A DNA stretch of 32,291 bases, taken from assembly GCA_947624745.1 (NCBI GenBank), contig CANQLR010000026.1, forward strand, positions 1 through 32,291, read 5' to 3'. The translations under genes and the position numbers were made by a program. Positions 8,397 to 28,433 of this stretch are shown piece after piece (positions within the stretch are counted from its first letter, which is position 1; each line of letters starts with the position of its first letter). Below the pieces are notes generated by a model, which did no database searches, had not been told where the DNA came from, and saw nothing but the letters and a program-made list of their open reading frames with translations. Origin of the DNA: an uncultured Clostridia bacterium. Its GTDB lineage: Bacteria; Bacillota; Clostridia; Oscillospirales; Ruminococcaceae.

Positions 8397-8846
8397 CTAC
8401 CTATACTTTATCTTCTCATACACCCAGCGGAGGAGCTTGGTGAGGAAATAGACCGGGACTGCGGCAAAGCAGCCGGTAACCTCCGAGCCGAAGACGGTCA
8501 CCATTACATACTCGGCGTTGTAGGCGAACGCGGCGTAGGGGTGGAAATACTGCGCGATGGCGACGCTCGTCGAGTCGATGACCTGAACGACCACCAGCCC
8601 CACAAAAGGAAGTATAAACGGCGCGGCGATCATTATCGGGCGCTCAAGGCTCCAGAGCATGATGATCTCCAGAATGAACCACGCCCAGAAAATTATTATC
8701 GCGCTGTTGAACTCATACCCGAAAAGCGCCGTCGTTATCGCGACAAAGGCTATCGGGATCGCGGTCAGCGCCATCACGAGCAAAAACCCGAAAAGCCCCG
8801 TTTTTGTCTCGCAAAAGCCCTTGACGCTGTCTATCAGACGGTACAT
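8397..8846 (-). CDS. Hypothetical membrane protein, last gene of the operon
   Basis: This 149-residue protein is not recognised. It has about four strongly hydrophobic segments (residues about 18-42, 47-66, 70-90 and 112-138), a short charged N-terminus and a basic C-terminal tail (LLRWVYEKIKYR). AAAGGAG in the end of the preceding gene supports the start, and only 2 bases separate the two genes. Its position behind the FtsX permease and before the shared terminator suggests an accessory subunit of the envelope machine, but no motif supports a specific role. Confidence 0.75.
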   Translation of the reverse strand: MYRLIDSVKGFCETKTGLFGFLLVMALTAIPIAFVAITTALFGYEFNSAIIIFWAWFILEIIMLWSLERPIMIAAPFILPFVGLVVVQVIDSTSVAIAQYFHPYAAFAYNAEYVMVTVFGSEVTGCFAAVPVYFLTKLLRWVYEKIKYR

Positions 8847-8848
8847 TT

Positions 8849-9205
8849 TTAACTCCTTTGGCCGTTATTATTCTTCGGGGTGCGGATCAGCGCGTAGACG
8901 AACCAGCCGACCGCCGTCCCGCACAAAAACGCCAGCGGCACGAACATCAGCACAAGCGACAAAAGCCCCAAAAGGAAGTAGCCGAGCACGCCCCAGCCGT
9001 CCTCGGTAAAGCCGACGGCCATCAGCGACACGCCGACCGCCCCGCAGAGCTTCATGAGAAGCTTTGCTATGACCGAAGGCACGAGCTTGCCGACGCTGCC
9101 CTTCAAAAACATGCAGCAGAGAAGCTGGATACCCGCGCCCGCGGCGAAGACCGCCGTCTCGAACACGGTGATCGCAAAACGGTTTAACGTTTCGGAGTCT
9201 AACAT
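8849..9205 (-). CDS. Hypothetical small membrane protein
   Basis: This 118-residue protein is not recognised. It has three or four hydrophobic segments (about residues 10-34, 44-64 and a long stretch 69-112), a pair of cysteines in the first (QLLCCMFL) and a short C-terminus RTPKNNNGQRS. GAAAGGAAA precedes the ATG. It begins 69 bases after the FtsX permease gene, with a GC hairpin at 9224-9251 in the gap, and is followed after 2 bases by another small membrane protein. It is probably co-transcribed with the ABC genes. Confidence 0.72.
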   Translation of the reverse strand: MLDSETLNRFAITVFETAVFAAGAGIQLLCCMFLKGSVGKLVPSVIAKLLMKLCGAVGVSLMAVGFTEDGWGVLGYFLLGLLSLVLMFVPLAFLCGTAVGWFVYALIRTPKNNNGQRS

Positions 9206-9223
9206 AAAAATTTCCTTTCGCTT

Positions 9224-9251: not shown

Positions 9252-9274
9252 ACGTTTTTTGGGTTTTTGACGGC

Positions 9275-12091
9275 TTAATCCTCGCCGAGCTTGAGCGCCT
9301 TGTTGATGTTTATCTGCTTGATGAGCCGCGCTATCACGATGAAACCGACGATGAGCATGACAAGGACTATCGCGTAGAGCTTGATATAGTCGCTCCTCTG
9401 GGAGACCACCCTGAACGGCGGCACCTGGTCGGTGACGTTATAGAGCACCTGGAATAGCGGCACGAAGATGTCGGAGGCTATTCCGCCGATGATGATCGAG
9501 AGGAATATCGACACGCCCGAGACAAGTATCTGCTCGTAGACTATCATCGAGATTATCTCGCCGAAGCTCATGCCCATGGCGCGGAGGATACCGAACTGGA
9601 GCGTTCTGCCCTTTATCGAGAGTATCCAGTAGATGAGGAAGCCGATGAAGCACATCGCCATTATCGTGATGAAACCGAGGGTCAGAGCGCCGTTCACGCC
9701 CTGAAGCACCGCGTCGGTCTTGGAGCTGATTATCAGCTGGGAGGCGACGTCGAGGCGGGTCGCGGTGATGTCGTTGTCGACGACGCTTTGATAGAGCTCG
9801 CCGATGTCGGCGTCCTTTTTGAGCTTCATCCAGACCTCGTAGGGCTCGGTGATGGTCATTATCGACATGTAGTCGTAGTTCATTATCGCGAAGTCGCGGT
9901 ATTCGCCGGCCGAGTTCTTGTCATAGGGGTTAAGCGACGGCCAGAAGTCGACCACGGCGACGACTACCGTCTCGAACCAGTCGTTTCTCGCCCACTTGAC
10001 CGAGACCACGTCGCCGAGCTTCACTCCCGCCTTTTCGGCGTAGGAGCTCGAAATGATAAGCCCGTCCTGACACTCGTTGAGGGCGTTTATGTAGTTATTG
10101 ATATGGCTCGGCAAAAGGTCGGAGCGGAACCACGCGACCCGGGCGAACTGGCTCGGGATTATCGCCATGACGTGGACGTCGACGGTGGTCGATTCGTCGT
10201 GGCGGAGCTGCACCGCGTCGCGCTGGAAAACGGGTGTCGCGAGCTCTACGCCGGCGAGAGAGGAGTATCTTTCAAACTCCGGCTCGGTGTACTGGGTTGT
10301 AGAGCTTTCCTCGCCCGTTTCGGGGTCGGTGACCTTTACCCGCGAGGTCTTCCACGCCTCGGAGATGACCGCGTCGGCGCCGAGGTTATAGCGTATGCGC
10401 TCCTCGGTGTTGCGGTTTATCGCGCGCGCCGTGTTCGCCGAGAATATGCCGAGCGCCACGGTGAGGATCAAAAAGATCATGATGAACTTTTCGCGCCCGG
10501 TCGAGGAGCGGCCGATGTTGTTGAGCGAGATGTACGCCGCCGGGGACCAGTGCTTGCGGCCGATGGTGTAGACCAAACGGATAAAGTAGGGGTAGATCCT
10601 TACGCAGAGAAGCGCCGCGCCCAAGATGAACACGGTGGAGGCCGCGAACATGAGCGGGTTCATCGCCGCGGAGGTGTCCACGATTCCTTGGCTGATAAGG
10701 TTGTCGTTGAGGCGGTTATACCACCAGAGCCAAGCTATTGGGAGAACGACGCAGATGACGTCAAGGAAGGAGCGCTGCCAGAAGGGTTTTTTCTGGCTGT
10801 GGGCCTTCGACTGCTTGTGGGCGACGATGGATACCCTCGAGGCCGGGACAATCGGCAGAAGGGTGGTTATGAAGAACACTCCGACGGCGGCGACGGCATA
10901 GCCGAAGGCCGTAAGAGAGAGCTTTGCGTGAAGCGCGGGGCGGTTCACAAACTCCAAGAAGCCGTTTGAAACGCCCAAGATGTTACAGAGGCCGAGGCCG
11001 ACGAACGGGCCGATGAGAGCCGAAATCGCGCCCAGAATAAGGGTCTCATAGGCATAGATGCGAAGTATCTGCCAAGAAGACGCGCCTCTTGATTTGAGCA
11101 TAGCTATTTCGTTTCGCTCGCTCTCGATATTGAGCTGGGATACCATAAAGAGGTAGAATATCAGCATTAAGATGACCGGGATATCGAGCATTAAAAGAAT
11201 GTATTTCAGGGAGCCGGCCTTGGCGGCGTAGCTCTCCAGGATCTCCTGCGCGGGGACCTCGAAGGTCGCGTTGTCGTCCTTGTACTTTTCGGCCTGCGAG
11301 GCGAACTGGCTCCTGACGTGCTCGATGACGTTCATGTCCATGTGCTGGTAGTCGATGATGATCCGGCAGTCGACCTGGTTGAGGTTGACGACCCCCGAGA
11401 GGATAACGTCGTCGATCATGGTGTTGAACTCGCAGAACATGGTGTTGTCATATTCGGTGAGGCCCTCAGACCAGTAGGTGTCGTTCTGGTCCTTGAGCTC
11501 GAAAACGCCGACTATCTTTATCTTCACCGTTTCGCCGGGGGAGAGGATATTCGTGACCTCATAGACCGTGTCCGGCATGGCCTGTGAGAGCTGGAGCGCC
11601 TTTTCGGTGCAGATGACCTCATAAATGCCGTCGGCGGTCTTTCCCGGCTCGAACATGCGCCCCGAGACGATGTTGATGTGGTCGCCGATGTCGGTCATGC
11701 CGCCCATTTTTATCATGGCGGGCTCGCCGCTCTCGGTCTCGATGTTCGTGATGTAAAGGTAGGAATCGGACGTGTAGCACTTATGGGTGAGATAGGGCAC
11801 AAAGAGGTCGTTGAAGCGGTTTACCGCCTTCGCGTAGATGTCGGCGACGGTGTTGCGCTGTCTTGCGGCGTTCGAGCCCGAAACTATTGTCTTAGATACC
11901 GCGTAAACGCCGGGGTATTCGCCGGTGTCCTCCTGATATGCCTGCATATCCTTTATCAGCATGCGCTGCAGGGAGGCGTGCATATAGATCGGTATCGTAC
12001 TTGTCATGGCTGTCGCCATTATAAAGCCGATGAGAAGGCAAATAACCATCCATTTGGTGTTGCGCATCTTACGGATCAGCAATGTGAGCAT
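9275..12091 (-). CDS. FtsX/MacB-like ABC transporter permease, 938 residues
   Basis: This large membrane protein matches the FtsX-like permease family (type VII ABC systems such as MacB or YknZ). A first membrane helix lies at about 14-35, followed by a large extracytoplasmic domain (about 36-285) and an FtsX core of several helices (about 290-435) carrying ESERNEIAMLKSRGASSWQIL. A further helix near 530-550 (FIMIFLILTVALGIFSANTA) begins a second extracytoplasmic domain to about 790, and a second FtsX core (about 800-930) carries LQFGILRAMGMSFGEIISM. CGGAGGA precedes the ATG. It follows a MacA-like lipoprotein by 28 bases; the matching ATPases are at the far 5' end of the same operon. Export or mechanical coupling is inferred from family. 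Confidence 0.88.
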   Translation of the reverse strand: MLTLLIRKMRNTKWMVICLLIGFIMATAMTSTIPIYMHASLQRMLIKDMQAYQEDTGEYPGVYAVSKTIVSGSNAARQRNTVADIYAKAVNRFNDLFVPYLTHKCYTSDSYLYITNIETESGEPAMIKMGGMTDIGDHINIVSGRMFEPGKTADGIYEVICTEKALQLSQAMPDTVYEVTNILSPGETVKIKIVGVFELKDQNDTYWSEGLTEYDNTMFCEFNTMIDDVILSGVVNLNQVDCRIIIDYQHMDMNVIEHVRSQFASQAEKYKDDNATFEVPAQEILESYAAKAGSLKYILLMLDIPVILMLIFYLFMVSQLNIESERNEIAMLKSRGASSWQILRIYAYETLILGAISALIGPFVGLGLCNILGVSNGFLEFVNRPALHAKLSLTAFGYAVAAVGVFFITTLLPIVPASRVSIVAHKQSKAHSQKKPFWQRSFLDVICVVLPIAWLWWYNRLNDNLISQGIVDTSAAMNPLMFAASTVFILGAALLCVRIYPYFIRLVYTIGRKHWSPAAYISLNNIGRSSTGREKFIMIFLILTVALGIFSANTARAINRNTEERIRYNLGADAVISEAWKTSRVKVTDPETGEESSTTQYTEPEFERYSSLAGVELATPVFQRDAVQLRHDESTTVDVHVMAIIPSQFARVAWFRSDLLPSHINNYINALNECQDGLIISSSYAEKAGVKLGDVVSVKWARNDWFETVVVAVVDFWPSLNPYDKNSAGEYRDFAIMNYDYMSIMTITEPYEVWMKLKKDADIGELYQSVVDNDITATRLDVASQLIISSKTDAVLQGVNGALTLGFITIMAMCFIGFLIYWILSIKGRTLQFGILRAMGMSFGEIISMIVYEQILVSGVSIFLSIIIGGIASDIFVPLFQVLYNVTDQVPPFRVVSQRSDYIKLYAIVLVMLIVGFIVIARLIKQININKALKLGED

Positions 12092-12119: not shown

Positions 12120-13169
12120 TTATCTGATGATCACCTCGTCGCCTTCTTCAAGGCCGGACGTGATCTCGACGAGCGAGCCGCTTTGCAGCCCGAGCCCGAC
12201 GTTTACCGTTATGCGCTGATTATCCTTGAAAACATAGACGCAGGGCACGCCGTTTACCTTTTTGACAAGGTTCGCGGAAATTACGATGACGTTTTCGCGC
12301 TTGTCAAGTATCAGAAGCGTGTCGGCGATGTTTCCGACAGCCGAGCTTTCGGGGATAACGTCGTTGAACTTGACGATTATCGCGTCGGACTGCTCGCCTA
12401 AGATCTCAACTCCGTCCGAGTCGACAAGGGCGGCGCCGGTGCTTTCGTCCCACTGCTTGCCGGAGGTGTTTTTGACGATGGTGCCGTCATAAAGCTCGCC
12501 GTCGTAGCGGATCGTTATCGGCCGGCCGATCAGAAATTCGCCGACCTCGTTCTGAGGGTCGATCTTTATATAGAGGTCGGTGACGTCGATGACCGTTACC
12601 ACCGTTTCGCCGGGGTTCACCCAGTCGCCGGGCGAGCAGGTCATCACGTAGGAGACGGTGCCGGTGACGCCCGAATAGAGCTTTGCGGCGTCCTTTTCGG
12701 CGTAGAGCTTGTCGAGGTCGTTCTGCATAAGATCCACGTCGAGCTGCTCCTTCGCCTTAACGTTTTCGGACTCGTGCTTTTCGACGGCGATCTCGTACTC
12801 TAATCTTTCGCGCTCGAGCTCTAACTCCATGCGCTCGATCTGCTGGTCGAGCTCGTACGTTTCAAACTCGGCCAGAAGCTGGCCCTCGGTGACAGTCTCG
12901 CCGGCAGAGACGTAGACGGCCTTTATGTTTCCGCCGACGTCCTGGAAGCGCGCGTTATATTCGGTGCCGGAGGCGATGGTGCCCATCGTGAGCACCTGCT
13001 TGACGATGTCGCGCTTGGTCGCGGTCGTGGTGGTATAGTTTACCTCGTTTTCCTTGACGACCGGGGCCTCCAAGAGCTCCTCCTCCTCGGGCAAGAAATA
13101 ACAGCCGCCGAGCGACATCATCAACATTGCCGACGCTGCCGCCGCCATTATTATCCTTTTCAGTTTCAT
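12120..13169 (-). CDS. MacA/HlyD-like adaptor lipoprotein
   Basis: This 349-residue protein resembles periplasmic adaptor proteins of the HlyD/MacA family. I take the ATG at 13169 because AAGGAG lies 7 bases upstream; an in-frame TTG at 13193 would add 8 residues. The N-terminus is a signal sequence ending in a lipobox (SLGGC, Cys23), so it should be a membrane-anchored lipoprotein. A beta-barrel/lipoyl half (NIKAVYVSAGETVTEGQLLAEFETYELDQQ), a short helical hairpin (about 115-160), the second lipoyl half (GVTGTVSYVMTCSPGDWVNPGETVVTVID) and a C-terminal segment GLQSGSLVEITSGLEEGDEVIIR follow. The short hairpin suits a single-membrane partner of the adjacent FtsX permease, as in YknX-YknYZ. Confidence 0.88.
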   Translation of the reverse strand: MKLKRIIMAAAASAMLMMSLGGCYFLPEEEELLEAPVVKENEVNYTTTTATKRDIVKQVLTMGTIASGTEYNARFQDVGGNIKAVYVSAGETVTEGQLLAEFETYELDQQIERMELELERERLEYEIAVEKHESENVKAKEQLDVDLMQNDLDKLYAEKDAAKLYSGVTGTVSYVMTCSPGDWVNPGETVVTVIDVTDLYIKIDPQNEVGEFLIGRPITIRYDGELYDGTIVKNTSGKQWDESTGAALVDSDGVEILGEQSDAIIVKFNDVIPESSAVGNIADTLLILDKRENVIVISANLVKKVNGVPCVYVFKDNQRITVNVGLGLQSGSLVEITSGLEEGDEVIIR

Positions 13170-13220
13170 AGCACTGCTCCTTTTTAGTTTCAAAGAAAGG
13201 TCCTTTTGCGTATCGTTTTC

Positions 13221-13284
13221 GCCCGAAAGTGCGGGCTTAAACGGAATAATCTATACTAAAAGTAATAACTTAGCGCGTTATTAC
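13221..13284 (-). other. Two inverted repeats between the GH26-like and MacA-like genes
   Basis: GTAATAAC (13262-13269) and GTTATTAC (13277-13284) form an 8-bp stem overlapping the GH26-like stop codon, and GCCCG (13221-13225) with CGGGC (13232-13236) forms a smaller hairpin. Neither has a T run in the operon direction. They may protect or process the mRNA, or bind a regulator; I see no convincing promoter. Confidence 0.4.
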
Positions 13285-14894
13285 GAATAGTCTTCTATTT
13301 CATCGAGAGTCACGACCGAATCGGCAGAGTAAAAGAGGTCCCAATCGGTCAGGCTCATGTATTTTTGCGAGAGCTCGCCCGCGACGTCCGCGTAATCGCC
13401 CGAAAAGACGGAGCAGAACGCCCACGCGGCCTTGTCCCGCGACATTTCGTCGGGGTTCGGGAGCACGCTGCACTCGCTGACGGCGGCCATCTTCGCGTCG
13501 GAGATCTCCCTCGCCAGAAGCATGAAGTTCACGCCCGCGCCGCCGACGTCCTGTTCGGGGTACACGTCGAGGGAGATGATGTCGCAGCGCTCGTCGCCGG
13601 GGTAAAACTCGGCGCTCTGGCCGTTCCATATCCAGATGAGGTTGTCGAGGCCGTGGAAGTTCACCATGCGGTCGAACACGAGGCGATAGAGCCAGAGGTA
13701 GCTTTCGGGGTCGCGGCTCCACCAGTAAACGCCGGTCGAAGCCTCGGGCAGGGGCCGAAAGAGCACCGGCACCTTTTCGCTGCGAAGCCGTTTCAGCTGG
13801 GCGGCGACAGAGTCGATGCCGTCGATGACCATTAAGGTCTCGAGGCTTATTTCGCCCGCCGAGTAGCGCTGGGTCAGGACCTCGCCGCTCATCGAGGCGA
13901 TGTCGAGGCCGGTGACGGCCAAGGAAAGGTCGAAGCCGTTTTCGAGATAGAGCGAGCCGCCCATCTGCCAGTACCAACTGAAGCCGACGATGCCGCCCTT
14001 TTCCGCCCAATCGAGGGCAAGCTCGATCTCGCCCGAATCCTCGCCGGAGGAGTAGGCCATAAGCTCGCCGAAGCGGATTGCCGGGTATTTCCCGACGGCG
14101 TTATATATCGCGTCGATCTCGTCGTTGGTGCCCTGCGTGCACTGCTGGGCCGAAAATGTCAGGTCGCCGTAGCACTTGCGCAGGTATTCGTAAAGCTTCC
14201 GCGCCTTTCGCAGAGGTTCGGGGGTGACGGGCTTTCGCGCGACCGAATAGTCGAGCCCGTCGACCGCGGAGGAGCTTTCTAACCTTAGGCAGTCAAGCTC
14301 GACCGCCGAGGTGAAGCCCGAAAACGACAGGGTATGCTCGCCCTGAGAGAGATAAATGCTGTCAAATCTTACCGATTCATAGCCGTCCCCGCCGGGGATA
14401 TCAATGAGATAGACCCCAAAAAGGCCGTCTACAGCCATTTCACCGCCCGAATCACCGTCCGAGCCGAGGCGAAGCGTGACGTTATAGTGCTGCGAGGTCG
14501 GGGCGTCGATTATTATGTCGAGAGTCTCGCCCGGGGCGAGGCTCACGCTGCCGTCGCCGGAATAGCCCTCGCGGCGGCGGGACAGGTCGCCGAACCTTTC
14601 AAGCTCGATAAGCTCGTCGAAGTCCTCGTAGTCGTGCTCGAAATCCTGCACCTCATAGACGTCCGGGACCTCGAAAACGGTGGTCTCCTCGGTTGTCGTG
14701 GGGGGAGGAGTAGTCTCGGGCGCAGTAGTCTCGGGATGGAGAGTTTCGGGGGCAGTTGTTTCGGGGGAGGTGAGCGCCGGGGTGCCGGTCATGATCGACA
14801 CGGTGGGCTCGTCGCCGGAATTAAGCGCCGCTTTTTCTCCCGAGCAGCCGCAGAGAAATATCGTCAAAACAAAAATTGACAGTATTCGTTTCAT
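13281..14894 (-). CDS. GH26-like glycoside hydrolase lipoprotein with N-terminal beta-sandwich
   Basis: This 537-residue lipoprotein has a signal sequence with lipobox LCGC (Cys17), a Pro/Thr/Glu linker with PETTAPET-type repeats (about 38-75), a predicted carbohydrate-binding-like beta-sandwich (about 78-207) and a GH26-type TIM barrel (about 222-530). GH26 enzymes include beta-mannanases. The pattern GGIVGFSWYWQMGG, then VPVLFRPLPEASTGVYWW with candidate acid/base Glu384, LIWIWN, and candidate nucleophile Glu474 in AAVSECS fits the family. The usual RPLHE histidine is replaced by proline, so substrate or activity may differ. It sits between a sugar permease pair and the MacA-like gene and probably trims glycan at the cell surface. 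A shadow frame at 13300-14010 is not real. Confidence 0.8.
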   Translation of the reverse strand: MKRILSIFVLTIFLCGCSGEKAALNSGDEPTVSIMTGTPALTSPETTAPETLHPETTAPETTPPPTTTEETTVFEVPDVYEVQDFEHDYEDFDELIELERFGDLSRRREGYSGDGSVSLAPGETLDIIIDAPTSQHYNVTLRLGSDGDSGGEMAVDGLFGVYLIDIPGGDGYESVRFDSIYLSQGEHTLSFSGFTSAVELDCLRLESSSAVDGLDYSVARKPVTPEPLRKARKLYEYLRKCYGDLTFSAQQCTQGTNDEIDAIYNAVGKYPAIRFGELMAYSSGEDSGEIELALDWAEKGGIVGFSWYWQMGGSLYLENGFDLSLAVTGLDIASMSGEVLTQRYSAGEISLETLMVIDGIDSVAAQLKRLRSEKVPVLFRPLPEASTGVYWWSRDPESYLWLYRLVFDRMVNFHGLDNLIWIWNGQSAEFYPGDERCDIISLDVYPEQDVGGAGVNFMLLAREISDAKMAAVSECSVLPNPDEMSRDKAAWAFCSVFSGDYADVAGELSQKYMSLTDWDLFYSADSVVTLDEIEDYS

Positions 14895-14928
14895 AAATTC
14901 CTCGGATTTTTAAGCTCTTTTTTATCGC

Positions 14929-14960
14929 CAAAACCTGCCGCCAAAAAACGGCAGGTTTTG
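14929..14960. terminator. 12-bp perfect hairpin, possible internal terminator
   Basis: CAAAACCTGCCG (14929-14940) and its exact complement CGGCAGGTTTTG (14949-14960) flank an 8-base loop between the second permease pair and the GH26-like gene. On the minus strand the stem ends in GGTTTTG, giving only a short T run, so partial termination is plausible and would lower expression of the last five genes. Confidence 0.55.
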
Positions 14961-14984
14961 CGACATAAGCGCTTTCGCGCAGGA

Positions 14985-16106
14985 TCACATACCGGTCAGA
15001 CCGGAACGGGCAAGGCCCTCTGTGAAGTACTTTTGCAGGAAGATATACATGATGAGTATCGGGGCTATCGAAAGCAGACACCCGGACTCGAGCCATACTA
15101 TCTTCTTTCTTGTGCCGACCTGAGCGCCGTTGAAGAGCTGCTGGTCGAGCGTGTTCGAGAGCTTCTGGAGCTCAAGCGCTACGGTGTGGTAACCGTTGAT
15201 GTAGGTAGAGGATACATAGTAGTCGTTCCAGTACCAGACTATCGAGAAGAGGAAGACGGTCAGGAACGCGGAGGACGCGTTCGGGATCATGATCTTGATG
15301 AAGGTCTTGAACGGGCCGCAGCCGTCGAGGTAGGCGGCGTCCTCAAGCTCTACCGGCAGTCCGCGGAAGAACTGGCGGAAGATGAAGATAAACAGACCCG
15401 ATTTGATGCCGTTTGCGAATATCGCAGGGACGTACATGACGAGCGGGAGGCCTATCATCGAGCAGTAGTAGCTGCCGTCGAAGCTCGCGACCTGAATGGA
15501 TTTGCCGAAGATCGTCTTAACGCCCATACCCGCAAGGAGCTTTACAAGGCCGAAGCCCTTGAAGAACGCCCACTGAAGGTAGATCGGGATAACGGTGATC
15601 TGCGGGGGAACGATTATCTGCATGATGACGACCGCGAAGCAGATGCCCTTGCCCTTGAAGTTGAATCTCGCGAGGCCGTAGCCGGTAAGAGCGCAGGTCA
15701 CGACCGAGAGGAGCGAGCAGACAAGGTTGAGCTTTACGGTGTTCCAAAGCGTCACGCCGAAGTCCATGGTTTCCCAGACGTCGATCATGTTCGAGAGCGT
15801 CAGGGATTTCGGCAGCCAGATTACCGACGGGTCGGTCATCTGCACGTTCGGCCTGAATGCCGTCGAGAACATGTAGATGAGCGGGTAGAGGATAACGAAG
15901 CAGAGCCCGAACAGTATCAGGAAGCGGAAGAACGGCCAGACCTTTTCGACGATGGCTTTTCTTCTTAGATAAGCGGTGTGCTCGGGGGATACTATGCGCT
16001 CGTCGAGGGTACCTGCCTTTTTGGCGGCCTTATAGGCCTTGTGCCTCTCCTTAAGAGCCTTTGCACGCTCTTTTTCAAATAATTTTTCTTCTTTTGCTGT
16101 TGCCAT
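14985..16106 (-). CDS. Sugar ABC permease, MalG/UgpE-like (pair 2, second subunit)
   Basis: This 373-residue inner-membrane permease belongs to the carbohydrate uptake (CUT1) binding-protein-dependent family. Six membrane segments are visible, with the EAA coupling loop LEDAAYLDGCGPFKTFIKIMIPN (about 248-270), which docks on a MalK/MsmX-type ATPase. A long basic cytoplasmic tail (about 55 residues, rich in Lys, Glu and Ala) precedes the first helix and is unusual for the family. An extra stretch between helices (about 176-205) lengthens the protein compared with the usual 270-300 residues. AAGGAGGG before the ATG supports the start. It follows its partner permease by 13 bases. Confidence 0.9.
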   Translation of the reverse strand: MATAKEEKLFEKERAKALKERHKAYKAAKKAGTLDERIVSPEHTAYLRRKAIVEKVWPFFRFLILFGLCFVILYPLIYMFSTAFRPNVQMTDPSVIWLPKSLTLSNMIDVWETMDFGVTLWNTVKLNLVCSLLSVVTCALTGYGLARFNFKGKGICFAVVIMQIIVPPQITVIPIYLQWAFFKGFGLVKLLAGMGVKTIFGKSIQVASFDGSYYCSMIGLPLVMYVPAIFANGIKSGLFIFIFRQFFRGLPVELEDAAYLDGCGPFKTFIKIMIPNASSAFLTVFLFSIVWYWNDYYVSSTYINGYHTVALELQKLSNTLDQQLFNGAQVGTRKKIVWLESGCLLSIAPILIMYIFLQKYFTEGLARSGLTGM

Positions 16107-20149: not shown

Positions 20150-21816
20150 TTGCCCTTGCCCCCTTTCTTGATTTTTTCAACTACGCTCATAACGGCGTTC
20201 TTTCCCGCGTCGACGACCTTGCCGACGCCCGTCGCGATGAGCCTTTGGGGTATCTTGCCCTTCTTCTGAAGGATCTTCACGACGAAGTAGAGTATCACAA
20301 GAAGGATTATCAGTATAACATAGAGGGTGAAGTTGTTTCTTAAGGTCTCCTGGCGGTTGGCCTCGAAGGCTCTGTCGTACTCGTCGCCGTAGAAAGCGAG
20401 CTTGGCGTACTTCATGGCGCCCTTGTAATCGTCCTGGTTGTAAAGAGCCTTAGTTGTGCCGACAAGACCCATGTAGAAGGCACCGTCGCGCTTAAGGACT
20501 TCCTTCCAGACCTCGTATGCCTCCTCATAAAGTCCCTGGTTGTGGAGCTTTATGGCCTCGTGGACATAGGAGCCGAACTCGGTCATGCCGAACACCGTGA
20601 TGTCGTTGTTTCGGCCGTCGAGGACGTAGATGTTGTCGCCCCAGGTCTCGATGGCGTTCGGGTTCGAGAAGCCGCCGCGCTGTTCCTCCTGGTCGAAGCC
20701 GAAGATGAGGAGCTGGTTGCAGCGCTCGTCGTACTGGAAGACGCGGCCCGAGGTGTAGTCGAGAATGTTGATGAAGTGGTCGTCGGATACCGCGATGTCG
20801 GTAAGACGGGTGGCGTAGGTGGTGCCGTTGTATGTGACCGAGACCTGGTCGCCGAACTCGTTGTTGTCGGCGGTCTTTTCAAGGATGTTGTAGCCTGCGG
20901 GGTTCATTCTCTTGACGGCGTCGGTCGAGGCGTTTGCGACCTCGGTGACGGTGTAGATGAAGCCCTCGTCGTCGATGTCGAAGTTAGCGTATTCGACAGG
21001 GGTCGACTTGGTGAGCGAGGCTATCTGCTCCTCGGAGGCTATCTTGCGCCACAGCTTGTTTCTTATGACCTCGGCCGTGACCTCGACGCGGTTCGCGCCG
21101 TAGTAGCCGACGAAGGAGCCGGAGTCGCTGAACATTATAGCTCCCTTATTGACGGCCGGGCAGATGACGTAGACGTTTTTCGCGGCGTCAACGAGGACCT
21201 TCGTGCAGTAGAAGGACTGGGATTCGTAGAGCGCGGTCTCGGGCTTGTAGTACTCCTGAAGTATCCTTGCGGAGGTCGGAGTCTCCTCGACGCACTTTAC
21301 TATTCTCTGGTTATCCCTGTCGGCGATATACATGACGTCGTCCTTGTCGACGAATATGCCGTAGGGGGCCTTGAGCTCGTCGGCGTCGACGGTTATCTCG
21401 TTGCCCTGGTCGTCGACGACGGTGTGCTTAGCGGTCGAGCCTGGGAAGTTTTTATAGACTGCCAGAAGCTCGAAGTCCATGCTGAGCTTGACTATCCTGT
21501 TGTTGCCGGTATCGACTATATACATCTCGCCCTTGGGGGAGATGAAGAAGTCCTTCATGTCCGAGAAATTGACGTTCTCGGTGTCGGAGATGTAAAATTC
21601 CGAAGAAGGGTCTCTAACTCTTTCGAGTCCGACGTCGCGGTAGGTAACGGTCTGAATGACCTCGTATCCCGCCTGCGACGGAAGCGCGTTATACCACGCG
21701 TCATAGTTGTATGTCGTATAGGGATCGACTGCCAGCGCTGTGGTCGACATAACTCCAAGCGCGAGCACGGCAGCGATCAGTACAGTTAATATTCTTTTGA
21801 TTTTCATACTTTTCAC
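20146..21816 (-). CDS. Exported NHL-propeller / TPR protein with C-terminal membrane anchor
   Basis: This 556-residue protein has a signal sequence (about 4-29), a six-bladed beta-propeller with NHL-like repeats (about 70-420, including DMKDFFISPKGEMYIVDTGNNRIVKL and LKAPYGIFVDKDDVMYIADRDNQRIVK), two TPR-like helical repeats (about 430-490, HNQGLYEEAYEVWKEVL), a membrane helix (about 503-524) and a basic cytoplasmic tail. Propellers of this kind bind proteins or glycans outside the cell. The GTG at 21816 is taken as start because AAAGGTG lies 7 bases upstream. It follows the first permease pair by 46 bases and overlaps the YIP1-like gene. No enzymatic residues are apparent; a docking or assembly role is inferred. 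Confidence 0.85.
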   Translation of the reverse strand: MKSMKIKRILTVLIAAVLALGVMSTTALAVDPYTTYNYDAWYNALPSQAGYEVIQTVTYRDVGLERVRDPSSEFYISDTENVNFSDMKDFFISPKGEMYIVDTGNNRIVKLSMDFELLAVYKNFPGSTAKHTVVDDQGNEITVDADELKAPYGIFVDKDDVMYIADRDNQRIVKCVEETPTSARILQEYYKPETALYESQSFYCTKVLVDAAKNVYVICPAVNKGAIMFSDSGSFVGYYGANRVEVTAEVIRNKLWRKIASEEQIASLTKSTPVEYANFDIDDEGFIYTVTEVANASTDAVKRMNPAGYNILEKTADNNEFGDQVSVTYNGTTYATRLTDIAVSDDHFINILDYTSGRVFQYDERCNQLLIFGFDQEEQRGGFSNPNAIETWGDNIYVLDGRNNDITVFGMTEFGSYVHEAIKLHNQGLYEEAYEVWKEVLKRDGAFYMGLVGTTKALYNQDDYKGAMKYAKLAFYGDEYDRAFEANRQETLRNNFTLYVILIILLVILYFVVKILQKKGKIPQRLIATGVGKVVDAGKNAVMSVVEKIKKGGKGK

Positions 21817-21862: not shown

Positions 21863-22837
21863 TCAATCCTTCATGCCCGAGTTGGCCATGGTTTCCATAA
21901 CGTTACTCTGTGCGATCAGGAATATGACAAGCGGAGGGATCATCAGAACGACGGCGGAGGCATAGATAATGCCCTGTCTCGCGATACCCGAAGCGGCGAT
22001 CTGCGACATGATGGTCGGCAGAGTCTTCAGTTGCTCCTTATAGACCAGCGCGCCGCCCTGTACGTTCCAAGCGCCTTGGAAGACGAAGATTATAAGGGTC
22101 GCGATGGCCGGCTTCTGGTTCGGGATAACGACCTGCCAGCAGGTCCTGAATGCTCCCGCTCCGTCGACGCGCGCGGCGTCGATTATCGCGTCGTTGATGG
22201 TCGACATGTTCTGCCTCATGAGGAACAGACCCATAGGAGTCGCTACCGAGGGCAGGATCATCGCCCAGTAGGTGTTTATCATTCCCATCTTCGCCATGAT
22301 GACGAACTGCATGATCCATGTAGCCGTCGAGGTGAAGAGCATCGAGGTGACGATCAGCTGGTTTGCCGCGCGGTAGCCCGGTATCTGCGGGCACTTGGAA
22401 AGGACGTAGGCGCAGCAGCAGACGACGAAGACGTGCATAAGCGTTATGGCGATGGTGATGAACACCGAGTTGAACACATAGCGCGAGAACGGTACCCAAA
22501 GGTTTCCGGCGACCTTGAACAGGTTCGAGAAGTTTTCGCCGGTGGGCTGCAAAACGTAAAGCTTAGGCGGGAAGACGAACAGCTCGCTTATCGGCTTTAA
22601 GGACTGCACTATCGAGTAGTAGAGCGGGAAGACCATAAACAGACCGAGGAGGAAGAGAAGAATGAATATGCAGATATCTCCGCCCAAAGAGCCGTTTATA
22701 TGCTTGCCCTTTGACTTTTTGACCTTCGCCTTTTCGATGTCGCCTCTCTTTTTCTGACGCTTTTTGAGCTTTTTCAGCGCTCTTGCGTTGGCGGCTTCCA
22801 ACGACTCGGGTATCATTTCGTTAGTATTTTCAGCCAA
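21863..22837 (-). CDS. Sugar ABC permease, MalG-like (pair 1, second subunit)
   Basis: This 324-residue CUT1-type permease has six membrane segments and the coupling loop IDAARVDGAGAFRTCWQVVIPN (about 216-237). Its cytoplasmic N-terminus of about 50 residues is very basic (ALKKLKKRQKKRGDIEKAKVKKSKGK). The start codon is TTG at 22837, with GGAGGGG six bases upstream and no better alternative. It follows its partner permease by 17 bases. Together they would form the membrane channel served by the large solute-binding protein two genes upstream. Confidence 0.9.
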   Translation of the reverse strand: MAENTNEMIPESLEAANARALKKLKKRQKKRGDIEKAKVKKSKGKHINGSLGGDICIFILLFLLGLFMVFPLYYSIVQSLKPISELFVFPPKLYVLQPTGENFSNLFKVAGNLWVPFSRYVFNSVFITIAITLMHVFVVCCCAYVLSKCPQIPGYRAANQLIVTSMLFTSTATWIMQFVIMAKMGMINTYWAMILPSVATPMGLFLMRQNMSTINDAIIDAARVDGAGAFRTCWQVVIPNQKPAIATLIIFVFQGAWNVQGGALVYKEQLKTLPTIMSQIAASGIARQGIIYASAVVLMIPPLVIFLIAQSNVMETMANSGMKD

Positions 22838-22854: not shown

Positions 22855-23811
22855 TTAGTTATCGGTATACTTGCTCAGCACTTTTCGTATGACGTGGTTG
22901 CATATAAGCATCGCCGCGAAGAGTACGAAGCATATTGCGGAGGCGTAGCCCATCTCATAACGGATCGAGCCGTAGTCCTGCGCGTGGTTCATTATCGTGT
23001 GGACGGCATATCCCGTAGACGGCAGTCCGCAGAGCGCCTGACCGACCGAGCCGACGGTGAACGCGCCGGAAATTGCAAGTACGGCGGCGAACAGAAGGGA
23101 CGGTCCCATCGCGGGGATGGTGATGGTGAAGAGCTCCTGGAAGCGGTTCTGGATACCCTCGATGGCGCCCGCCTCGTAAAGGGCGGTGTCGATGCCCTGG
23201 AAGCCTGCGCGAAGGGCCAGGAAGCCCGCGCCCATCGACATCCACAGCTGGACTATGATGACGACGGTCATCATGTAGGTGACGTCGGTCAGCCACTGCT
23301 TAGCCGAATTGATGATACCGAGGTCCAAAAGCACCGAGTTTAAGTATCCGTAGGAGTCGCCCGAGAAGACGAGCTGCCAGATAACGAACGCGGAAGGCGT
23401 CATGGACGGGGCGTAGAAAACGAAAGTGAAGAATACCTTGAGGAAGGGATTCATCTCGTTGATGAGCCATGCGAGTATAAAGCTGAGAACGTAGGAGAAC
23501 GGTCCCGTGAATACCGCAAAGATCAGGGTGTTCTTGATGGCGATGAGGAATACGTCGTCGTTTACGAACAGGGAGTAGAAATTCTGGAGCCCTATGTAGT
23601 GCGGGAACTGGACGAGGTTAAAGGAAGTCAGTCCCAGCGGGAGCGACATCACGACGGGAATTATCGTGAATATCGCGAAGAGCAGGAAGAACGGAAGCAT
23701 CATCCAGTAGCAGGCCTGGTTCATCTTCATCAGGTGGAGAGTATAGGCCGCCTTGGACTCGGTATTTATCGGCCTCGGCTTCTTTTGCTCGGTCGTTTTT
23801 TCTTTTGCCAT
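22855..23811 (-). CDS. Sugar ABC permease, MalF/UgpA-like (pair 1, first subunit)
   Basis: This 318-residue permease has six membrane segments and the coupling loop YEAGAIEGIQNRFQELFTITIP (about 231-252). A basic, Lys/Pro-containing N-terminal tail precedes the first helix (about 36). It begins 14 bases after the solute-binding protein gene with a GGAGG-type site, the usual binding protein-permease-permease order. A MalK/MsmX-type ATPase is expected as partner, but none is encoded in the window. Confidence 0.9.
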   Translation of the reverse strand: MAKEKTTEQKKPRPINTESKAAYTLHLMKMNQACYWMMLPFFLLFAIFTIIPVVMSLPLGLTSFNLVQFPHYIGLQNFYSLFVNDDVFLIAIKNTLIFAVFTGPFSYVLSFILAWLINEMNPFLKVFFTFVFYAPSMTPSAFVIWQLVFSGDSYGYLNSVLLDLGIINSAKQWLTDVTYMMTVVIIVQLWMSMGAGFLALRAGFQGIDTALYEAGAIEGIQNRFQELFTITIPAMGPSLLFAAVLAISGAFTVGSVGQALCGLPSTGYAVHTIMNHAQDYGSIRYEMGYASAICFVLFAAMLICNHVIRKVLSKYTDN

Positions 23812-23825: not shown

Positions 23826-26747
23826 TTAAGATTCTTCGGGAACCGGGATGCCGAGTTCCTCGTATTTACGGATGATCTCGTCGTTGATATCCTTGTTGTA
23901 CCAAAGCAGCGTATCGCGCGGGTTGGAAGCAAGGTTGATGGTCTCTCTGAAGGCGTTAGTGATGTTACGTGTGACGATGTAGGTCGCGGGGATGATGTCT
24001 ATCTCGACGGTGGCGTCCATCTGAGTCCTTATCATGTCGAGCTCGGACTGGCTCCATGCGAGCTGGCCGAGGGCCTCGCGGTTAGCGGTCTCGAAACGTC
24101 CCATAGGACCTAACAGCGCTTCGATCGAGCGGCCGTATTCCGACTGGATCTCGGCGGAGGTGAACCACTTGATGAGCTCCCATGCGACCTCTCTCTGGTG
24201 CTGGTTGAGCTTCGAGAAGATGATCGCGCCGTTGGAGGCCGAGGTGGTCGCGTGGTTTACGTTGCCGTTTTCATCGGCCGTGCCGGGGATGAGCTGGAAG
24301 TCCCAAAGACCTCTTATTTCGGGGGCGGCCATGTAGAGCTGGTTATAGAAGGTGTAGCCGGTAACCACTATCGGATATTCGCCGGAGCGGAAACGTGTGA
24401 ACTGGTCGAATACCTGCTCGAAGGAATATGTCGAGTAGAACTTGGTCCACATCTCGAACGCCTCGACGGCGGGCTGAGTCTCGAAGATGGTCTTGGTCTT
24501 GGAGGGGTTATAGTACCCTAAGCCCTTCTGTACGAGGAAGGTAGCGTATGCGTCGAAGTTGAAGCCGACGCCCATATAGCTTCTCTGGAGGGTCGGGAGC
24601 ATGTCGATCAGTTCGTCCCAGGTCTCGGGGCCCTTGTCGAAGCCGAAGCCTGCCAGAACGTCGTTGCGGCAGAACATCATCGAGAAGGTCTGGGAGATCG
24701 GCAGCCCGTAGACGCCGTCCTGATAGGTGTAGAGGGTCATGATATTCGGGGCGAAGCGCTTGATGACCTCCTGATAGTCCGGGAACTGGGAGATATCGAC
24801 GAGGCAGTCACGCGCGGCCAGCTGGATAGGCAGGTCGCCGCCGACGAAGAGGACAACGTCAGGTCCCTTGCCGGCAAGAGTAGACTCAAGTATACCGCCC
24901 TGAACGAGGTTGATATTGACCGGTCTGTCTTCGCTTGCAAAGTAGGAGTCGACAAGCTCCTTGACTATCTGCGCCTGGTCGCGTCCGAGGGATACCCAGA
25001 CGTTGAGGGCCTCGGCGTTATCGTCCGAGAGGACGTCGTAATCCTCGAAGAAGGACCCCAAGAACGAACGGAAGCTGAACGTGAGCTGTTTGAAGAAGTT
25101 TTCCTTGATGGGGCTGAAGCTCTGGTCGGCGGAGGCGATCTCTATGATATCGACCTCAAGGGCCTGAGAGCGGTAGTCAGCCATCCACTGGGAAAGCGAG
25201 GAAATGTTATCCTTGATCTGGCCGAGGCAGCCCGGGATCTCGTCCGGCTTGTCGACCAATCTGTCCAGAAGCTTAGCCATGGTATCGAGCGAAACGGCTT
25301 CGGTACCCTTGGTTCCGGCGAGGGTCTCGACCTCGGACTTGATGTCGCGGAGGCTCTGAGCGTAGGTAGCGAAGTCCTCCAGAATGCCCTCGATCTGGTT
25401 CTGGATCATGTAGGTGTTGTATTCGTCGGGGGACGGGCCGGTTATCTGAAGGATCTGACGGTAGTAGCTGTTCAGATAGTAGATAACGTCGTCGAGCTTA
25501 CGCATGATGTTGCCTATCTCGCCCGGCATTGCCTCGAGCATGATGTTGTGCTTTCCGGCGCTGAGGTAGAAGTAGAGGGTCTTGCCGTCGGCGTCGGCAG
25601 GAGTTACGCACTTCCACGTGGTGGAGTAGTAGAACTTGACCTGCTCGGCTTCCTTGCAGGGCACCTCGCCGTCGATGTAGATGGTCCTGTTCGAGTAAAG
25701 ACCGCGCATCTGATCCTGCTTGGCGCGGATGCCTATCTTATAGTAGCCGTCCTTCGGAACCTCGAAATCCCAGCTGATGTACTGGTTCGAGGACTTCCAG
25801 TTCTCCTTGCCGATGGTGTTGTAGGTCATCTTGGTCGGGTCGGAGGGGGAGGTGAGATAGGTCGAACGGTCGTATGTAGGATAAAGGGTGATGTCCGACG
25901 CGGTGGAGGGGGTTTCGCCCTCGATCGAGACCAGAACGCCGGTGGTGGCGCTCGCCTTGCTCTCGTCCACAGTCACCTTGTTGGGAACGTCCTTCGCCGC
26001 CGGGATCTCGTCGGGGTTGCAGAGGGTCATCGACTTGATGGCGAACCTTGCCTTTTCCGAGATCAGCGAGAGGGTGTGAGTGCCCTTTTCAAAGTAGAAT
26101 CCCAGAGGACCCGCAAAGAGCCCGTCGCCGTCCTTGAACCATGCGGTCTGCCAGCCGAGCTGCTCCTCGAGGGTAGGTCTTATCTGGTTGTCGTGAATAT
26201 CGGTGCGGAAGCCGGTGCGGTTGCCCTGCTCGTCGTGGTCGAACGAGCTCTCGGCGCCGACCCATATCTTGGACAGCGCGACGCGCTCCGCAGAGTCGAA
26301 CGGGATAACGCCGTCGATCGCCACGGACAGCTCGATGTTGTTGGCAGAGCTTTCAAGGGCGTAGTATTCGATCTTTATGCCGTAAACGCCCGTTTCGGGA
26401 ACGTCAACGGTAAAATCGACCTCGCCGGAAGCCTCGGGCCAGAACAGAACGTCCCCCACGCCGCCGTCGCCCGCGCCGACATAAGCGCCGGTCTCCTCGG
26501 AAGCGCTGACGTAATCCGTGCCGTTTATCACGGCCTCCTGCTTCGGCCTCGGGTCGCTTGCATGAGTGTCATAGTAGGTGCCGTAGGTGCGCGCGCGGTT
26601 CTCTTCGTCGATAGACTGCGCCGAGGTTTCCTTGGTCGCCGTGGTCTGCGCGCCGTTCGAGTCGGCATAGACCGCGGGGATAAGCGGGAGCACCATGGTA
26701 AGAGCTATGACAGCTGCAATAAAGCGCCTGATCATTGTGTCTTTCAC
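23826..26747 (-). CDS. Multidomain solute-binding protein with two beta-sandwich modules
   Basis: This 973-residue exported protein is more than twice the usual length of a sugar-binding protein (about 400-450). I take GTG at 26747, with AAAGGTGG seven bases upstream; a TTG at 26765 would add 6 residues. A signal peptide (about 1-28) without lipobox cysteine is followed by a first jelly-roll module (about 70-245), a second (about 275-420), a helical linker (about 425-575) and a family 1 extracellular solute-binding domain (about 590-973) with LNVWVSLGRDQAQIVKELV, GPDVVLFVGGDLPIQLAARD and YGLPISQTFSMMFCR. It would catch a glycan and deliver it to the permeases. How it is retained at the surface without a lipid anchor is not visible. 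Confidence 0.88.
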   Translation of the reverse strand: MKDTMIRRFIAAVIALTMVLPLIPAVYADSNGAQTTATKETSAQSIDEENRARTYGTYYDTHASDPRPKQEAVINGTDYVSASEETGAYVGAGDGGVGDVLFWPEASGEVDFTVDVPETGVYGIKIEYYALESSANNIELSVAIDGVIPFDSAERVALSKIWVGAESSFDHDEQGNRTGFRTDIHDNQIRPTLEEQLGWQTAWFKDGDGLFAGPLGFYFEKGTHTLSLISEKARFAIKSMTLCNPDEIPAAKDVPNKVTVDESKASATTGVLVSIEGETPSTASDITLYPTYDRSTYLTSPSDPTKMTYNTIGKENWKSSNQYISWDFEVPKDGYYKIGIRAKQDQMRGLYSNRTIYIDGEVPCKEAEQVKFYYSTTWKCVTPADADGKTLYFYLSAGKHNIMLEAMPGEIGNIMRKLDDVIYYLNSYYRQILQITGPSPDEYNTYMIQNQIEGILEDFATYAQSLRDIKSEVETLAGTKGTEAVSLDTMAKLLDRLVDKPDEIPGCLGQIKDNISSLSQWMADYRSQALEVDIIEIASADQSFSPIKENFFKQLTFSFRSFLGSFFEDYDVLSDDNAEALNVWVSLGRDQAQIVKELVDSYFASEDRPVNINLVQGGILESTLAGKGPDVVLFVGGDLPIQLAARDCLVDISQFPDYQEVIKRFAPNIMTLYTYQDGVYGLPISQTFSMMFCRNDVLAGFGFDKGPETWDELIDMLPTLQRSYMGVGFNFDAYATFLVQKGLGYYNPSKTKTIFETQPAVEAFEMWTKFYSTYSFEQVFDQFTRFRSGEYPIVVTGYTFYNQLYMAAPEIRGLWDFQLIPGTADENGNVNHATTSASNGAIIFSKLNQHQREVAWELIKWFTSAEIQSEYGRSIEALLGPMGRFETANREALGQLAWSQSELDMIRTQMDATVEIDIIPATYIVTRNITNAFRETINLASNPRDTLLWYNKDINDEIIRKYEELGIPVPEES

Positions 26748-26812
26748 TTTGAATCCACCTTTCAATAGATTTGGAGTGCGTATATTTTCTCCATGTAGGT
26801 TAATAAAGTAGG

Positions 26813-27772
26813 TTATTGGGCCTTGTGAATGTAGATGCGCTCGTTTTCGAGATCAAGATCAGCCTTGACCTTTGAGCCGCCCTTTATCTCAAGCGCTTCG
26901 AGGTATTCCTTCGGGATCTGCATCCTGCCCGTTCTGTCGAGCACCACGAGCTCCTCGGATACCTCCTGCTCTTCCTCCGCGCCGTCCCAGCCCTTCGTTT
27001 CGGACATTATCTCGGCGTGGGATTTTTTTATGATCTCGCTCGAGGTCCTGCCGTCGCGTATGCTGATGACGCGGTCTATCTGCTTCGCGAGCCTAAGGTC
27101 GTGGGTAACTATCACGACCGTGACGCCGCGGTTTTTGTTAATGTCCTTGAACACCCCGAGCAGCTGGTCCGAGGTCTTGGTGTCGACCGAACCGGTGGGC
27201 TCGTCGGCCAGAAGTATCGCCGGGTCGTTTGCCAAGGATATCGCGATGGCGACCCTTTGCTGTTCGCCGCCCGACATCTGATCAAGCCGGGAGTTTATCC
27301 TGTTCGAGAGGCCGACCGCCTCCAAAAGCTCCAACGCCTTTTCGCGGCGCTGCTTTTGGCCCTGAAGGAGCATCGGGAGCTCGACGTTCTGCACCGCCGT
27401 CAGATACGGCACCAAATTTCGCGCGTTGTTCTGCCAGACGAAGCCGACGGTGTTTCGCTTATAGATCATGTAGTCCTCTTCGGTGAATTTCAGAAGATTC
27501 CGCCCGTTCACCGTAAGGCTGCCGGCGGAGGGTTTATCGAGCCCGCCGAGCATGTTCAAAAGCGTCGATTTGCCTGAGCCCGAGGTGCCGACTATCGCCA
27601 CAAGCTCGCCCTTTTTGATCTGAAGATCGAGACCTTGGAGCGCCACGACCTCTATCTGGTCGGTCTTGTATATCTTGACAAGGTTCTCGCATTCGATGGC
27701 ATACTCGCTCTCGGAGATGAGCTCCTGCTCGTGGGCGAGCTTTGCCTTTTTCTTTTTAGTCAACGATCTCAC
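26813..27772 (-). CDS. ABC ATPase (LolD/MacB type) with C-terminal AbrB-like domain
   Basis: This 319-residue cytoplasmic ATPase has Walker A GTSGSGKS (62-69), signature SGGEQ (167-171), Walker B AILLADE (185-191) and switch His224. An N-terminal Lys-rich tail of about 20 residues precedes the domain. After the ATPase core comes an acidic linker (about 258-272) and then about 42 residues (275-316) with VVLDRTGRMQIPKEYLEAL, matching the swapped-hairpin AbrB/MazE/SpoVT DNA-binding fold. This extension is absent from typical LolD-like ATPases of about 230 residues. The GTG start at 27772 overlaps the preceding ATPase gene by 17 bases. It probably pairs with that ATPase to energise the FtsX permease. 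Confidence 0.9.
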   Translation of the reverse strand: MRSLTKKKKAKLAHEQELISESEYAIECENLVKIYKTDQIEVVALQGLDLQIKKGELVAIVGTSGSGKSTLLNMLGGLDKPSAGSLTVNGRNLLKFTEEDYMIYKRNTVGFVWQNNARNLVPYLTAVQNVELPMLLQGQKQRREKALELLEAVGLSNRINSRLDQMSGGEQQRVAIAISLANDPAILLADEPTGSVDTKTSDQLLGVFKDINKNRGVTVVIVTHDLRLAKQIDRVISIRDGRTSSEIIKKSHAEIMSETKGWDGAEEEQEVSEELVVLDRTGRMQIPKEYLEALEIKGGSKVKADLDLENERIYIHKAQ

Positions 27773-28433
27773 CGTCCTCCAAAGTATATACGCGGTCGGC
27801 GATCTCCAAAAGGCTGACGTCGTGCGTGGTCATTACTATAGTCATGTGTTCGTCCAGAACGAGCCGCTTGAAAAGCTCGACGATGTGGTGCGAGGTGCCC
27901 GAGTCAAGCTCGGCCGTGGGCTCGTCGGCAAAGATTATCTTCGGCTCGTGGGCCAAAGCCCGCGCGATTGCGACCCTTTGCTGCTCGCCGCCCGAAAGCT
28001 CGCCGGGGCGGTGGTGCATTCTCTTTGCGAGGCCGACCTCTTCAAGACACTTTGTCACCCTCTCCTGACGCTTGTCGAGGGGGAACCCCGCCAGCCGCAG
28101 CCCGAAATCGACGTTTTCATACGCCGTCATCGAGCTCATCAGCGCGACCGACTGGAACACGAATGCCATCTTATAGCGGCGGATCTCGTCCCGCTTGCGG
28201 TCAGACAGCTTCGTGATGTCCTCGCCGTCGAAGATCACTTCGCCGGTGGTCGGCCTATCCAAAGCGCCGAGCATATTTATCAGGGTGGTCTTTCCCGAGC
28301 CGGAACGCCCTTTTAAAATCGTGAGCTTTCCCTCGGCGACCTGAATGTTTACGCCCTTTAAGGCGTGTACCACCGAGCCGTCGCCGATGATAAAGTCGCG
28401 GGTGATGTTTGTTGCGGTTAAAAGTTCTGCCAT
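27756..28433 (-). CDS. ABC ATPase (LolD/MacB type), first gene of the operon
   Basis: This 225-residue ATPase has Walker A GRSGSGKT (42-49), signature SGGEQ (147-151), Walker B KIIFADE (165-171) and switch His204. The length and sequence fit the lipoprotein/MacB/FtsE group, not the MalK group, which has a C-terminal regulatory domain. I take the ATG at 28433 (CGGAGA 6-7 bases upstream) and not the GTG at 28466. Its partner permease is most likely the FtsX-like protein at 9275-12091 in the same run. The long leader and strong promoter are described separately. Confidence 0.93.
   Translation of the reverse strand: MAELLTATNITRDFIIGDGSVVHALKGVNIQVAEGKLTILKGRSGSGKTTLINMLGALDRPTTGEVIFDGEDITKLSDRKRDEIRRYKMAFVFQSVALMSSMTAYENVDFGLRLAGFPLDKRQERVTKCLEEVGLAKRMHHRPGELSGGEQQRVAIARALAHEPKIIFADEPTAELDSGTSHHIVELFKRLVLDEHMTIVMTTHDVSLLEIADRVYTLEDGEIVD

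Follow-up and report, generated by a model that had tools for sequence, protein, structure and literature searches.

The window analysed here, a stretch of 32,291 nucleotides from an uncultured Clostridia bacterium of the family Ruminococcaceae, contains an operon of fifteen open reading frames (ORFs) which all lie on the minus strand, extend from 28466 or 28433 down to 8397, and are separated by gaps of at most 90 nt or by small overlaps. The genes can be read as two modules. Module 1 would be a glycan-uptake cassette comprising a large binding protein, two pairs of CUT1-type permeases, an anchored propeller, a Yip1 protein and a GH129-like DUF5696 protein, and module 2 would be a type VII ABC machine comprising a fused YbbP-type permease, an adaptor and two different ATPases. 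A preliminary description of this DNA had reported the fifteen-gene same-strand run, which the ORF list bears out, and the profile matches agree with the family labels it assigned (two LolD/MacB-type ATPases, a solute-binding protein, four permeases, NHL, Yip1, DUF5696, GH26, adaptor and FtsX). Its interpretation is partly supported by the comparisons reported below, which point to a lineage-specific union of the importer cassette with the type VII ABC machine and not to one ancient machine. The features are:

28653 to 28679, minus strand: terminator of the upstream gene (10-pair stem and T run), the operon's upstream limit
28583 to 28611, minus strand: sigma-70-type promoter, TTGACA-17-TATAAT, 12/12 consensus match
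27756 to 28433, minus strand: A1, ABC ATPase of the FtsX machine, LolD/FtsE-like (profile matches)
26813 to 27772, minus strand: A2, second ABC ATPase of the FtsX machine (profile matches)
23826 to 26765, minus strand: giant solute-binding protein, 979 aa (SBP_bac_8, 2.5e-19 at 628-877)
22855 to 23811, minus strand: P1, CUT1-type permease (BPD_transp_1, 5.7e-10; UgpA-like; EAA loop EAGAIEG)
21863 to 22837, minus strand: P2, CUT1-type permease (UgpE-like, 1.9e-24; EAA-type loop DAARVDGA)
20146 to 21816, minus strand: NHL-propeller protein (NHL, 4.1e-11; C-terminal transmembrane helix 498-516)
19514 to 20149, minus strand: Yip1-domain membrane protein (PF04893, 1.9e-15)
17112 to 19490, minus strand: DUF5696 protein, GH129-like fold, N-terminal hydrophobic segment (DUF5696, 5.6e-143)
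16120 to 17112, minus strand: P3, CUT1-type permease (UgpA-like, 3.3e-15; EAA loop EAASIEGA)
14985 to 16106, minus strand: P4, CUT1-type permease (BPD_transp_1, 1.8e-10; GlcU/UgpE-like; EAA-type loop DAAYLDGC)
14895 to 14984, minus strand: hairpin with weak T4 tail (-40.5 kcal/mol for 90 nt)
13281 to 14894, minus strand: GH26 lipoprotein, mannanase-like (PF02156, 4.2e-40; mannanase 3zm8, 1.7e-71)
12120 to 13193, minus strand: HlyD/MacA-type adaptor, or membrane fusion protein (PF16576, 9.6e-8, over cut-off; TIGR01730, 5.8e-16, under cut-off)
9275 to 12091, minus strand: FtsX-type permease, YbbP-like layout (PF02687 in two stretches; LolF/LolC, PsdB and MacB matches)
8397 to 9205, minus strand: two small membrane ORFs at the operon tail, hardly conserved

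The consensus promoter claimed in the preliminary description is present as a full match, and it is the only minus-strand promoter-like site matching at least 9 of 12 consensus positions between 7500 and 30000; a 12/12 promoter also precedes A1 in 17 of the 21 related loci examined, that of Ruminococcus albus included. The leader between promoter and A1 (28434-28582, minus strand) holds a long hairpin, AGCAAATAC...GTATTTGCT, which is without an Rfam match and is possibly regulatory; an Rfam scan of the window at gathering thresholds returned one tRNA and no other RNA element. The largest intergenic gaps fall at the module borders, between P4 and GH26 (90 nt), GH26 and the adaptor (87 nt), and FtsX and the tail ORFs (69 nt).

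The two ATPases are separate genes, not fused to a permease in the MacAB-TolC manner (the PRK10535 match spans the ATPase part only), and by eye both keep the Walker A, signature, Walker B and H-loop motifs. A1 likely starts at the ATG at 28433, behind CGGAG, which is also the end coordinate of the preliminary description. A1 and A2 score below the equivalog cut-offs for LolD (TIGR02211, 206.8 and 228.4 vs 307.75) and FtsE (TIGR02673, 196.3 and 180.8 vs 264.85), and A1 lies below the cut-offs of all 25 NCBIfam models among the matches listed. Residues 278-315 of A2 (26828-26941, minus strand) give a weak AbrB/MazE-like match (8.2e-4, under cut-off), which is odd for a transporter ATPase. In the permease, one chain combines a pair of FtsX units with two large outer domains, as judged from predicted helices, outer loops and hydropathy; the protein thus has the FtsX units with large extracytoplasmic domains that define type VII ABC systems (the MacB/FtsX superfamily), although its predicted structure was too poor for use (pLDDT 50.5, pTM 0.32, 9 close sequences). 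A1 and A2 probably act as a heterodimer, one subunit for each permease half. The GH26 protein, whose lipoprotein status was read by eye from its N-terminus, has the Glyco_hydro_26 domain and both conserved glutamates, E384 and E474, which lie in the family's motifs, are invariant in 10/10 sequences and are presumably catalytic. No match over cut-off to a TesA-like lipase or esterase was found among the 15 operon genes, and a scan of ten proteins (nine from FtsX loci together with the 563-aa protein described below) returned adaptors, unrelated genes or no match and indicated no function for FtsX.

The cassette has the composition of a CUT1 importer, with a binding protein matching SBP_bac_1/8 and EAA-type coupling loops in all four permeases; the BPD_transp_1 scores of P2 and P3 (24.0 and 25.4 bits) fall just below the 26.4 cut-off, and NCBIfam matches back both. 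The N-terminal half of the binding protein gives weak matches to carbohydrate-binding-type profiles (CBM_35 and Golvesin_C, under cut-off). Of the propeller/TPR label given in the preliminary description only the NHL propeller was recovered, TPR repeats, a reading by eye, being undetected by Pfam at E 0.01. No MalK/MsmK-type ATPase is encoded among the fifteen genes, and OB_MalK matches occur elsewhere in all 11 genomes searched (G000 and ten others); a MalK-type ATPase from another locus probably drives the cassette permeases.

The Pfam family DUF5696 has a GH129-like glycosidase fold, with the overall GH129 arrangement of beta-sandwich, TIM barrel and C-terminal beta domain. Identity to GH129 NagBb and to the GH129-like ZgGH129/DagB is 13-14%, and enzyme activity is only putative. 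In GH129 the catalytic Asp435 of NagBb is equivalent to Asp486 of ZgGH129 (PMC5698469); here Asp593, an acidic residue in the C-terminal half that is invariant in 47/47 sequences, is a possible candidate for the corresponding position. A family found in 190 of the 394 order-sample genomes described below thereby gains a likely enzyme fold. Literature searches found no paper under the name DUF5696 and none on Ruminococcus albus with FtsX and ABC transporter, and among the Yip1 matches listed, judged from titles and the openings of abstracts, none was relevant.

The strong hairpin between P4 and GH26, which the preliminary description did not mention, is read as an eroded terminator. A hairpin followed by a T-rich tail stands behind P4 in all 6 loci of other branches of the genus in which the modules are linked (gaps of 668-1455 nt; shuffled expectation 0.00) and in 10/10 loci in which they are split (0.09 expected). 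In the window's subclade (the window and 12 others, G004 included) the hairpin is kept in 11/13 loci vs 2.82 expected, and the T-rich tail is found in 1/13 vs 0.11 expected. Counted without shuffles, the tail occurs in 2/2 and 6/10 loci of two sister genera, in 9/12 R. albus-like loci and in 4/10 plain cassettes, that is, cassettes without A1/A2. The P4-GH26 gap holds no promoter-like site of at least 9/12 in 12 of the 13 subclade loci, the one site in the remaining locus (L061) lying inside the GH26 reading frame, and the six linked loci of other branches have sites of 9-10/12 in or beside their longer gaps, some of which may be chance. Since the terminator tail and an in-gap promoter are missing in nearly all subclade loci, one continuous operon appears to be a trait of the window's subclade. 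A strong promoter and a full terminator between the modules had been named in the preliminary description as evidence against a single system; a full terminator is present in 6 of the 17 linked relatives in the genus, and neither signal is found in 12/13 subclade loci.

The origin of the arrangement can be traced by comparison at several taxonomic levels. Within the genus, 28 of 30 relatives were readable around DUF5696 (the assembly of G020 is too fragmented), and in all 28 A1 and A2 stand ahead of the cassette; behind it, 17 have GH26, adaptor and FtsX. In the two sister genera, which have A1-A2-cassette loci, the adaptor-FtsX loci are separate (12 FtsX loci), with A1/A2 orthologs beside FtsX in none and ATPases of 25-27% identity in three, and the R. 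albus-like records likewise keep adaptor and FtsX apart from the A1-A2-cassette locus (8/8 FtsX loci read). Because these sister genera fall outside the window's genus in the FtsX tree, the linked layout most likely arose within the genus.

The order sample comprises 394 genomes, 42 from the window's family and 352 from outside it, and full-length or nearly full-length FtsX relatives occur in 49 of them. In the family, 21 genomes have both FtsX and DUF5696, 4 have DUF5696 alone, none has FtsX alone and 17 have neither. A2 lies within 10 kb of DUF5696 in all 21 FtsX-bearing family genomes, with A1/A2 ahead of the cassette, and FtsX lies near DUF5696 in 5 and elsewhere in 16. A2 is present in 47 genomes of the order sample, all among the 49 with FtsX, and the two FtsX genomes without it (G116 and G258) are assemblies of 410 and 470 contigs. 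Of the 13 FtsX loci read in the order beyond the family, 12 have A1 next to FtsX and 11 have A2 there (the absences fall at contig ends), none holds genes of module 1, and one (L107) has three HlyD-type adaptors. FtsX is accompanied by A2 at six further loci in the phylum, five of which also have A1 and the sixth of which is at a contig end; one of these six (L262) adjoins another CUT1 pair of 26-28% identity.

The cassette ATPases are orthologous, on sequence grounds, to those beside FtsX in other families. In the A1/A2 tree the cassette-borne A1 form one clade (SH-aLRT 84) and the cassette-borne A2 another (98), and all A1 rows, cassette-side and FtsX-side, separate from all A2 rows with support of 100. 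In the solute-binding protein tree (59 rows) the distribution of A1/A2 needs three changes, read as one gain and two losses, and both losing genomes (L168/G442 and L173/G443) also lack FtsX; both trees are quick searches on chosen subsets. Among named records, FtsX was found in 18/18 with A1/A2-cassettes vs 0/32 with plain cassettes. These are 50 of 80 named loci, the others being 14 kin from the window's genus (L143-L156), two plain cassettes (L221, L222) and 14 loci incomplete upstream of or within the cassette (L166, L174, L176, L177, L180, L192, L193, L200, L202, L203, L205, L214, L216, L219). The records were sorted from the locus map, A1/A2 elsewhere in plain genomes not being searched, and carry no completeness values; at least two of the 18 positives (L167 and L178) correspond to G183 and G130 and are not new genomes.

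Coupled expression of two lineage-associated modules is supported by the position of the ATPases ahead of the cassette (21/21) and by the subclade junction without a full terminator or promoter (12/13), and the claim of one integrated system stands to that extent in this lineage; as an indivisible machine it does not stand, the cassette occurring without a MacAB-like part in most lineages. It is probable, though well short of certain, that the two modules form a composite locus under one promoter and are co-expressed for one glycan. The assembly of the operon would then have passed through four stages, in which module 2 stood alone (as in other families), its ATPases came to the head of the cassette (in the Ruminococcus-like family), GH26, adaptor and permease joined it at the tail (in the window's genus), and the intervening terminator decayed in the window's subclade, so that all genes are probably made together. 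When the glycan is present, the cell would make the importer together with a mechanical device of the envelope. The outer domains of this device, driven by ATP, may move or present a surface partner with the help of the adaptor; the GH26 lipoprotein would be the best candidate, as TesA is for YbbAP (PMC12646458). The union suggests, on genomic evidence, that the two modules act on the same plant polysaccharides. We infer this joint action and the partnership with GH26 from the gene content, order, co-occurrence and signals found. An unlikely extension is that the heterodimeric-ATPase machine acts as a surface presenter which moves or activates GH26, and possibly DUF5696, with the oligosaccharides set free close to the importer of the same operon and handed to it. 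If co-expression holds, the locus links a class of ABC machines with extracellular mechanical functions to the uptake of glycans by Ruminococcus relatives of herbivore guts, and offers an operon whose assembly is traceable from separate loci, through ATPases at the head and permease at the tail, to a decayed terminator; cultured R. albus carries the A1-A2-cassette and a separate adaptor-FtsX locus.

Several results weigh against this reading. In 10 of the 28 readable genus relatives GH26, adaptor and FtsX lie away from the cassette, with FtsX 46-47 kb off on the same contig in three (G006, G024, G030) and on another contig in seven, and in G004 only GH26 follows the cassette and FtsX is on a different contig. 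The clade of split loci could be a reversal of linkage (support for the linked clade is 67/70). One further relative (G009, locus L077) has GH26, adaptor and FtsX, while A2 and a full DUF5696 were not found, which speaks against strict dependence; it is either an orphan permease or an assembly gap. The P4-GH26 hairpin may terminate part of the transcripts and lower expression of the tail genes. The cassette lacks module 2 in most genomes, and outside the family FtsX occurs in 28 of the 352 genomes, DUF5696 in 165, and both in only 5.

Plain co-location, in which chance neighbours hitch-hike in an operon with no joint function, is a possible explanation that we place on the unlikely side. In other families the modules occur independently, genomes often retain the cassette without FtsX, and the split clade and two sister genera keep adaptor and FtsX elsewhere. 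Chance must nevertheless account for two separate joins to the same cassette, of the head ATPases in the family and of the tail GH26-adaptor-permease in the genus, for ATPases that precede the cassette in every cassette-bearing FtsX family genome read while the permease is mostly elsewhere, and for the loss of the T-tract in the window's subclade. That module 2 is a usual efflux and immunity pump for peptides or drugs, expressed with the sugar cassette by happenstance, is improbable: a MacB review (PMC5985334) connects Gram-positive systems of an adaptor with a MacB-like part to antimicrobial peptides, but the Pfam matches of the operon genes include no bacteriocin-like family, and throughout the family sample module 2 is bound up with a glycan cassette.

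The physically integrated surface glycan machine of the preliminary description, with import and MacAB-like action in a single complex, is a quite improbable account. It draws on the bracketing order, seen in the window and 17 relatives, on the seven relocated FtsX loci read (six of the ten and G009), where GH26 precedes the adaptor, both on one strand, in 7/7 (about 1 kb apart in two), and on the YbbAP-TesA complex as a precedent for a hydrolase carried by a type VII ABC transporter (PMC12646458). The cassette is complete without module 2, however, the permease is distant in sister genera, and six linked relatives have full terminators between the modules. That description had held that independent occurrence of importer and MacAB-like genes in most genomes would contradict it, and this is what is found outside the family, where 23 of the 28 FtsX genomes lack DUF5696 at E up to 1e-60. 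In three genomes (G057, G073, G209) the two are on different contigs; by direct reading, the whole 17-kb FtsX contig of G147 has no cassette gene and none is seen on the 4.6-kb one of G258. Among 279 phylum genomes, three besides the window's own have both, on separate contigs. The same cassette order, with neither A1/A2 nor FtsX, recurs in further families of the order and of the phylum. A single indivisible machine was rejected, since beyond the family the cassette and the FtsX part are found separately. Least probable, and very much so, is that A1/A2 serve the sugar permeases as their dedicated ATPases, with FtsX being incidental. The two come first in the operon, no other ATPase gene is in the cassette, and they stay with it when FtsX is elsewhere; against this, the 32 plain cassettes without A1/A2 are in genomes also without FtsX, A2 was never found without FtsX in the order sample, MalK-type ATPases occur in 11/11 genomes searched, and A1/A2 are LolD/FtsE-like and lie beside FtsX in other families. 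This role was rejected on the co-occurrence with FtsX.

Other neighbours of the modules are more varied. In other lineages P4 is followed by GH95, GH26 and GH130 genes as well as by unrelated ones (78 proteins scanned, from 51 of 112 loci outside the genus with a close same-strand neighbour). GH26 is near adaptor and FtsX in 3 of 20 sister-lineage FtsX loci read outside the genus (L094, L095, L240), a proximity which is weak because genomes have 2-6 GH26 genes each (12 searched). In distant phylum members GH26 follows the cassette directly (L264) or one gene on (L270, L271), possibly an older cassette-mannanase tie. The fifteen-gene extent holds for the main genes, and the last two ORFs (9205-8397), poorly conserved, are probably not part of the system. 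Directly upstream of the operon, a 563-aa protein with its own terminator (28711-30402, minus strand) has a hydrophobic segment at the N-terminus and a transmembrane helix at the C-terminus, and matches no Pfam family. In four loci (L143, L145, L146, L149) a relative with 36-44% identity stands ahead of A1, and the protein looks like a fast-evolving surface protein.

Among the closest known systems, module 2 recalls E. coli YbbAP-TesA, with which it shares a fused double MacB-like permease, two outer domains, a separate ATPase gene and a genetic tie to a hydrolase; the YbbP layout is described as two fused MacB-like units with two outer domains (PMC5985334), and YbbAP-TesA as a type VII ABC transporter able to carry a hydrolase (PMC12646458). 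Here there are instead two distinct ATPases and an HlyD-type adaptor, the place of TesA is taken by a GH26 lipoprotein, and the setting is a sugar-import operon. The Gram-positive MacAB-like systems YknXYZ and Spr0693-0695 (PMC5985334) have in common with module 2 an adaptor, a separate ATPase, an FtsX/MacB-type permease and no outer-membrane exit duct, whereas the window has a fused double permease, two ATPases and an adjoining sugar cassette. Module 1 shares with CUT1 importers of the UgpAE, MalFG and GlcTU type a binding protein and UgpA/UgpE-like permeases with EAA loops, and differs in having two permease pairs for one giant binding protein, NHL, Yip1 and DUF5696 as recurrent partners, and no ATPase gene of its own.

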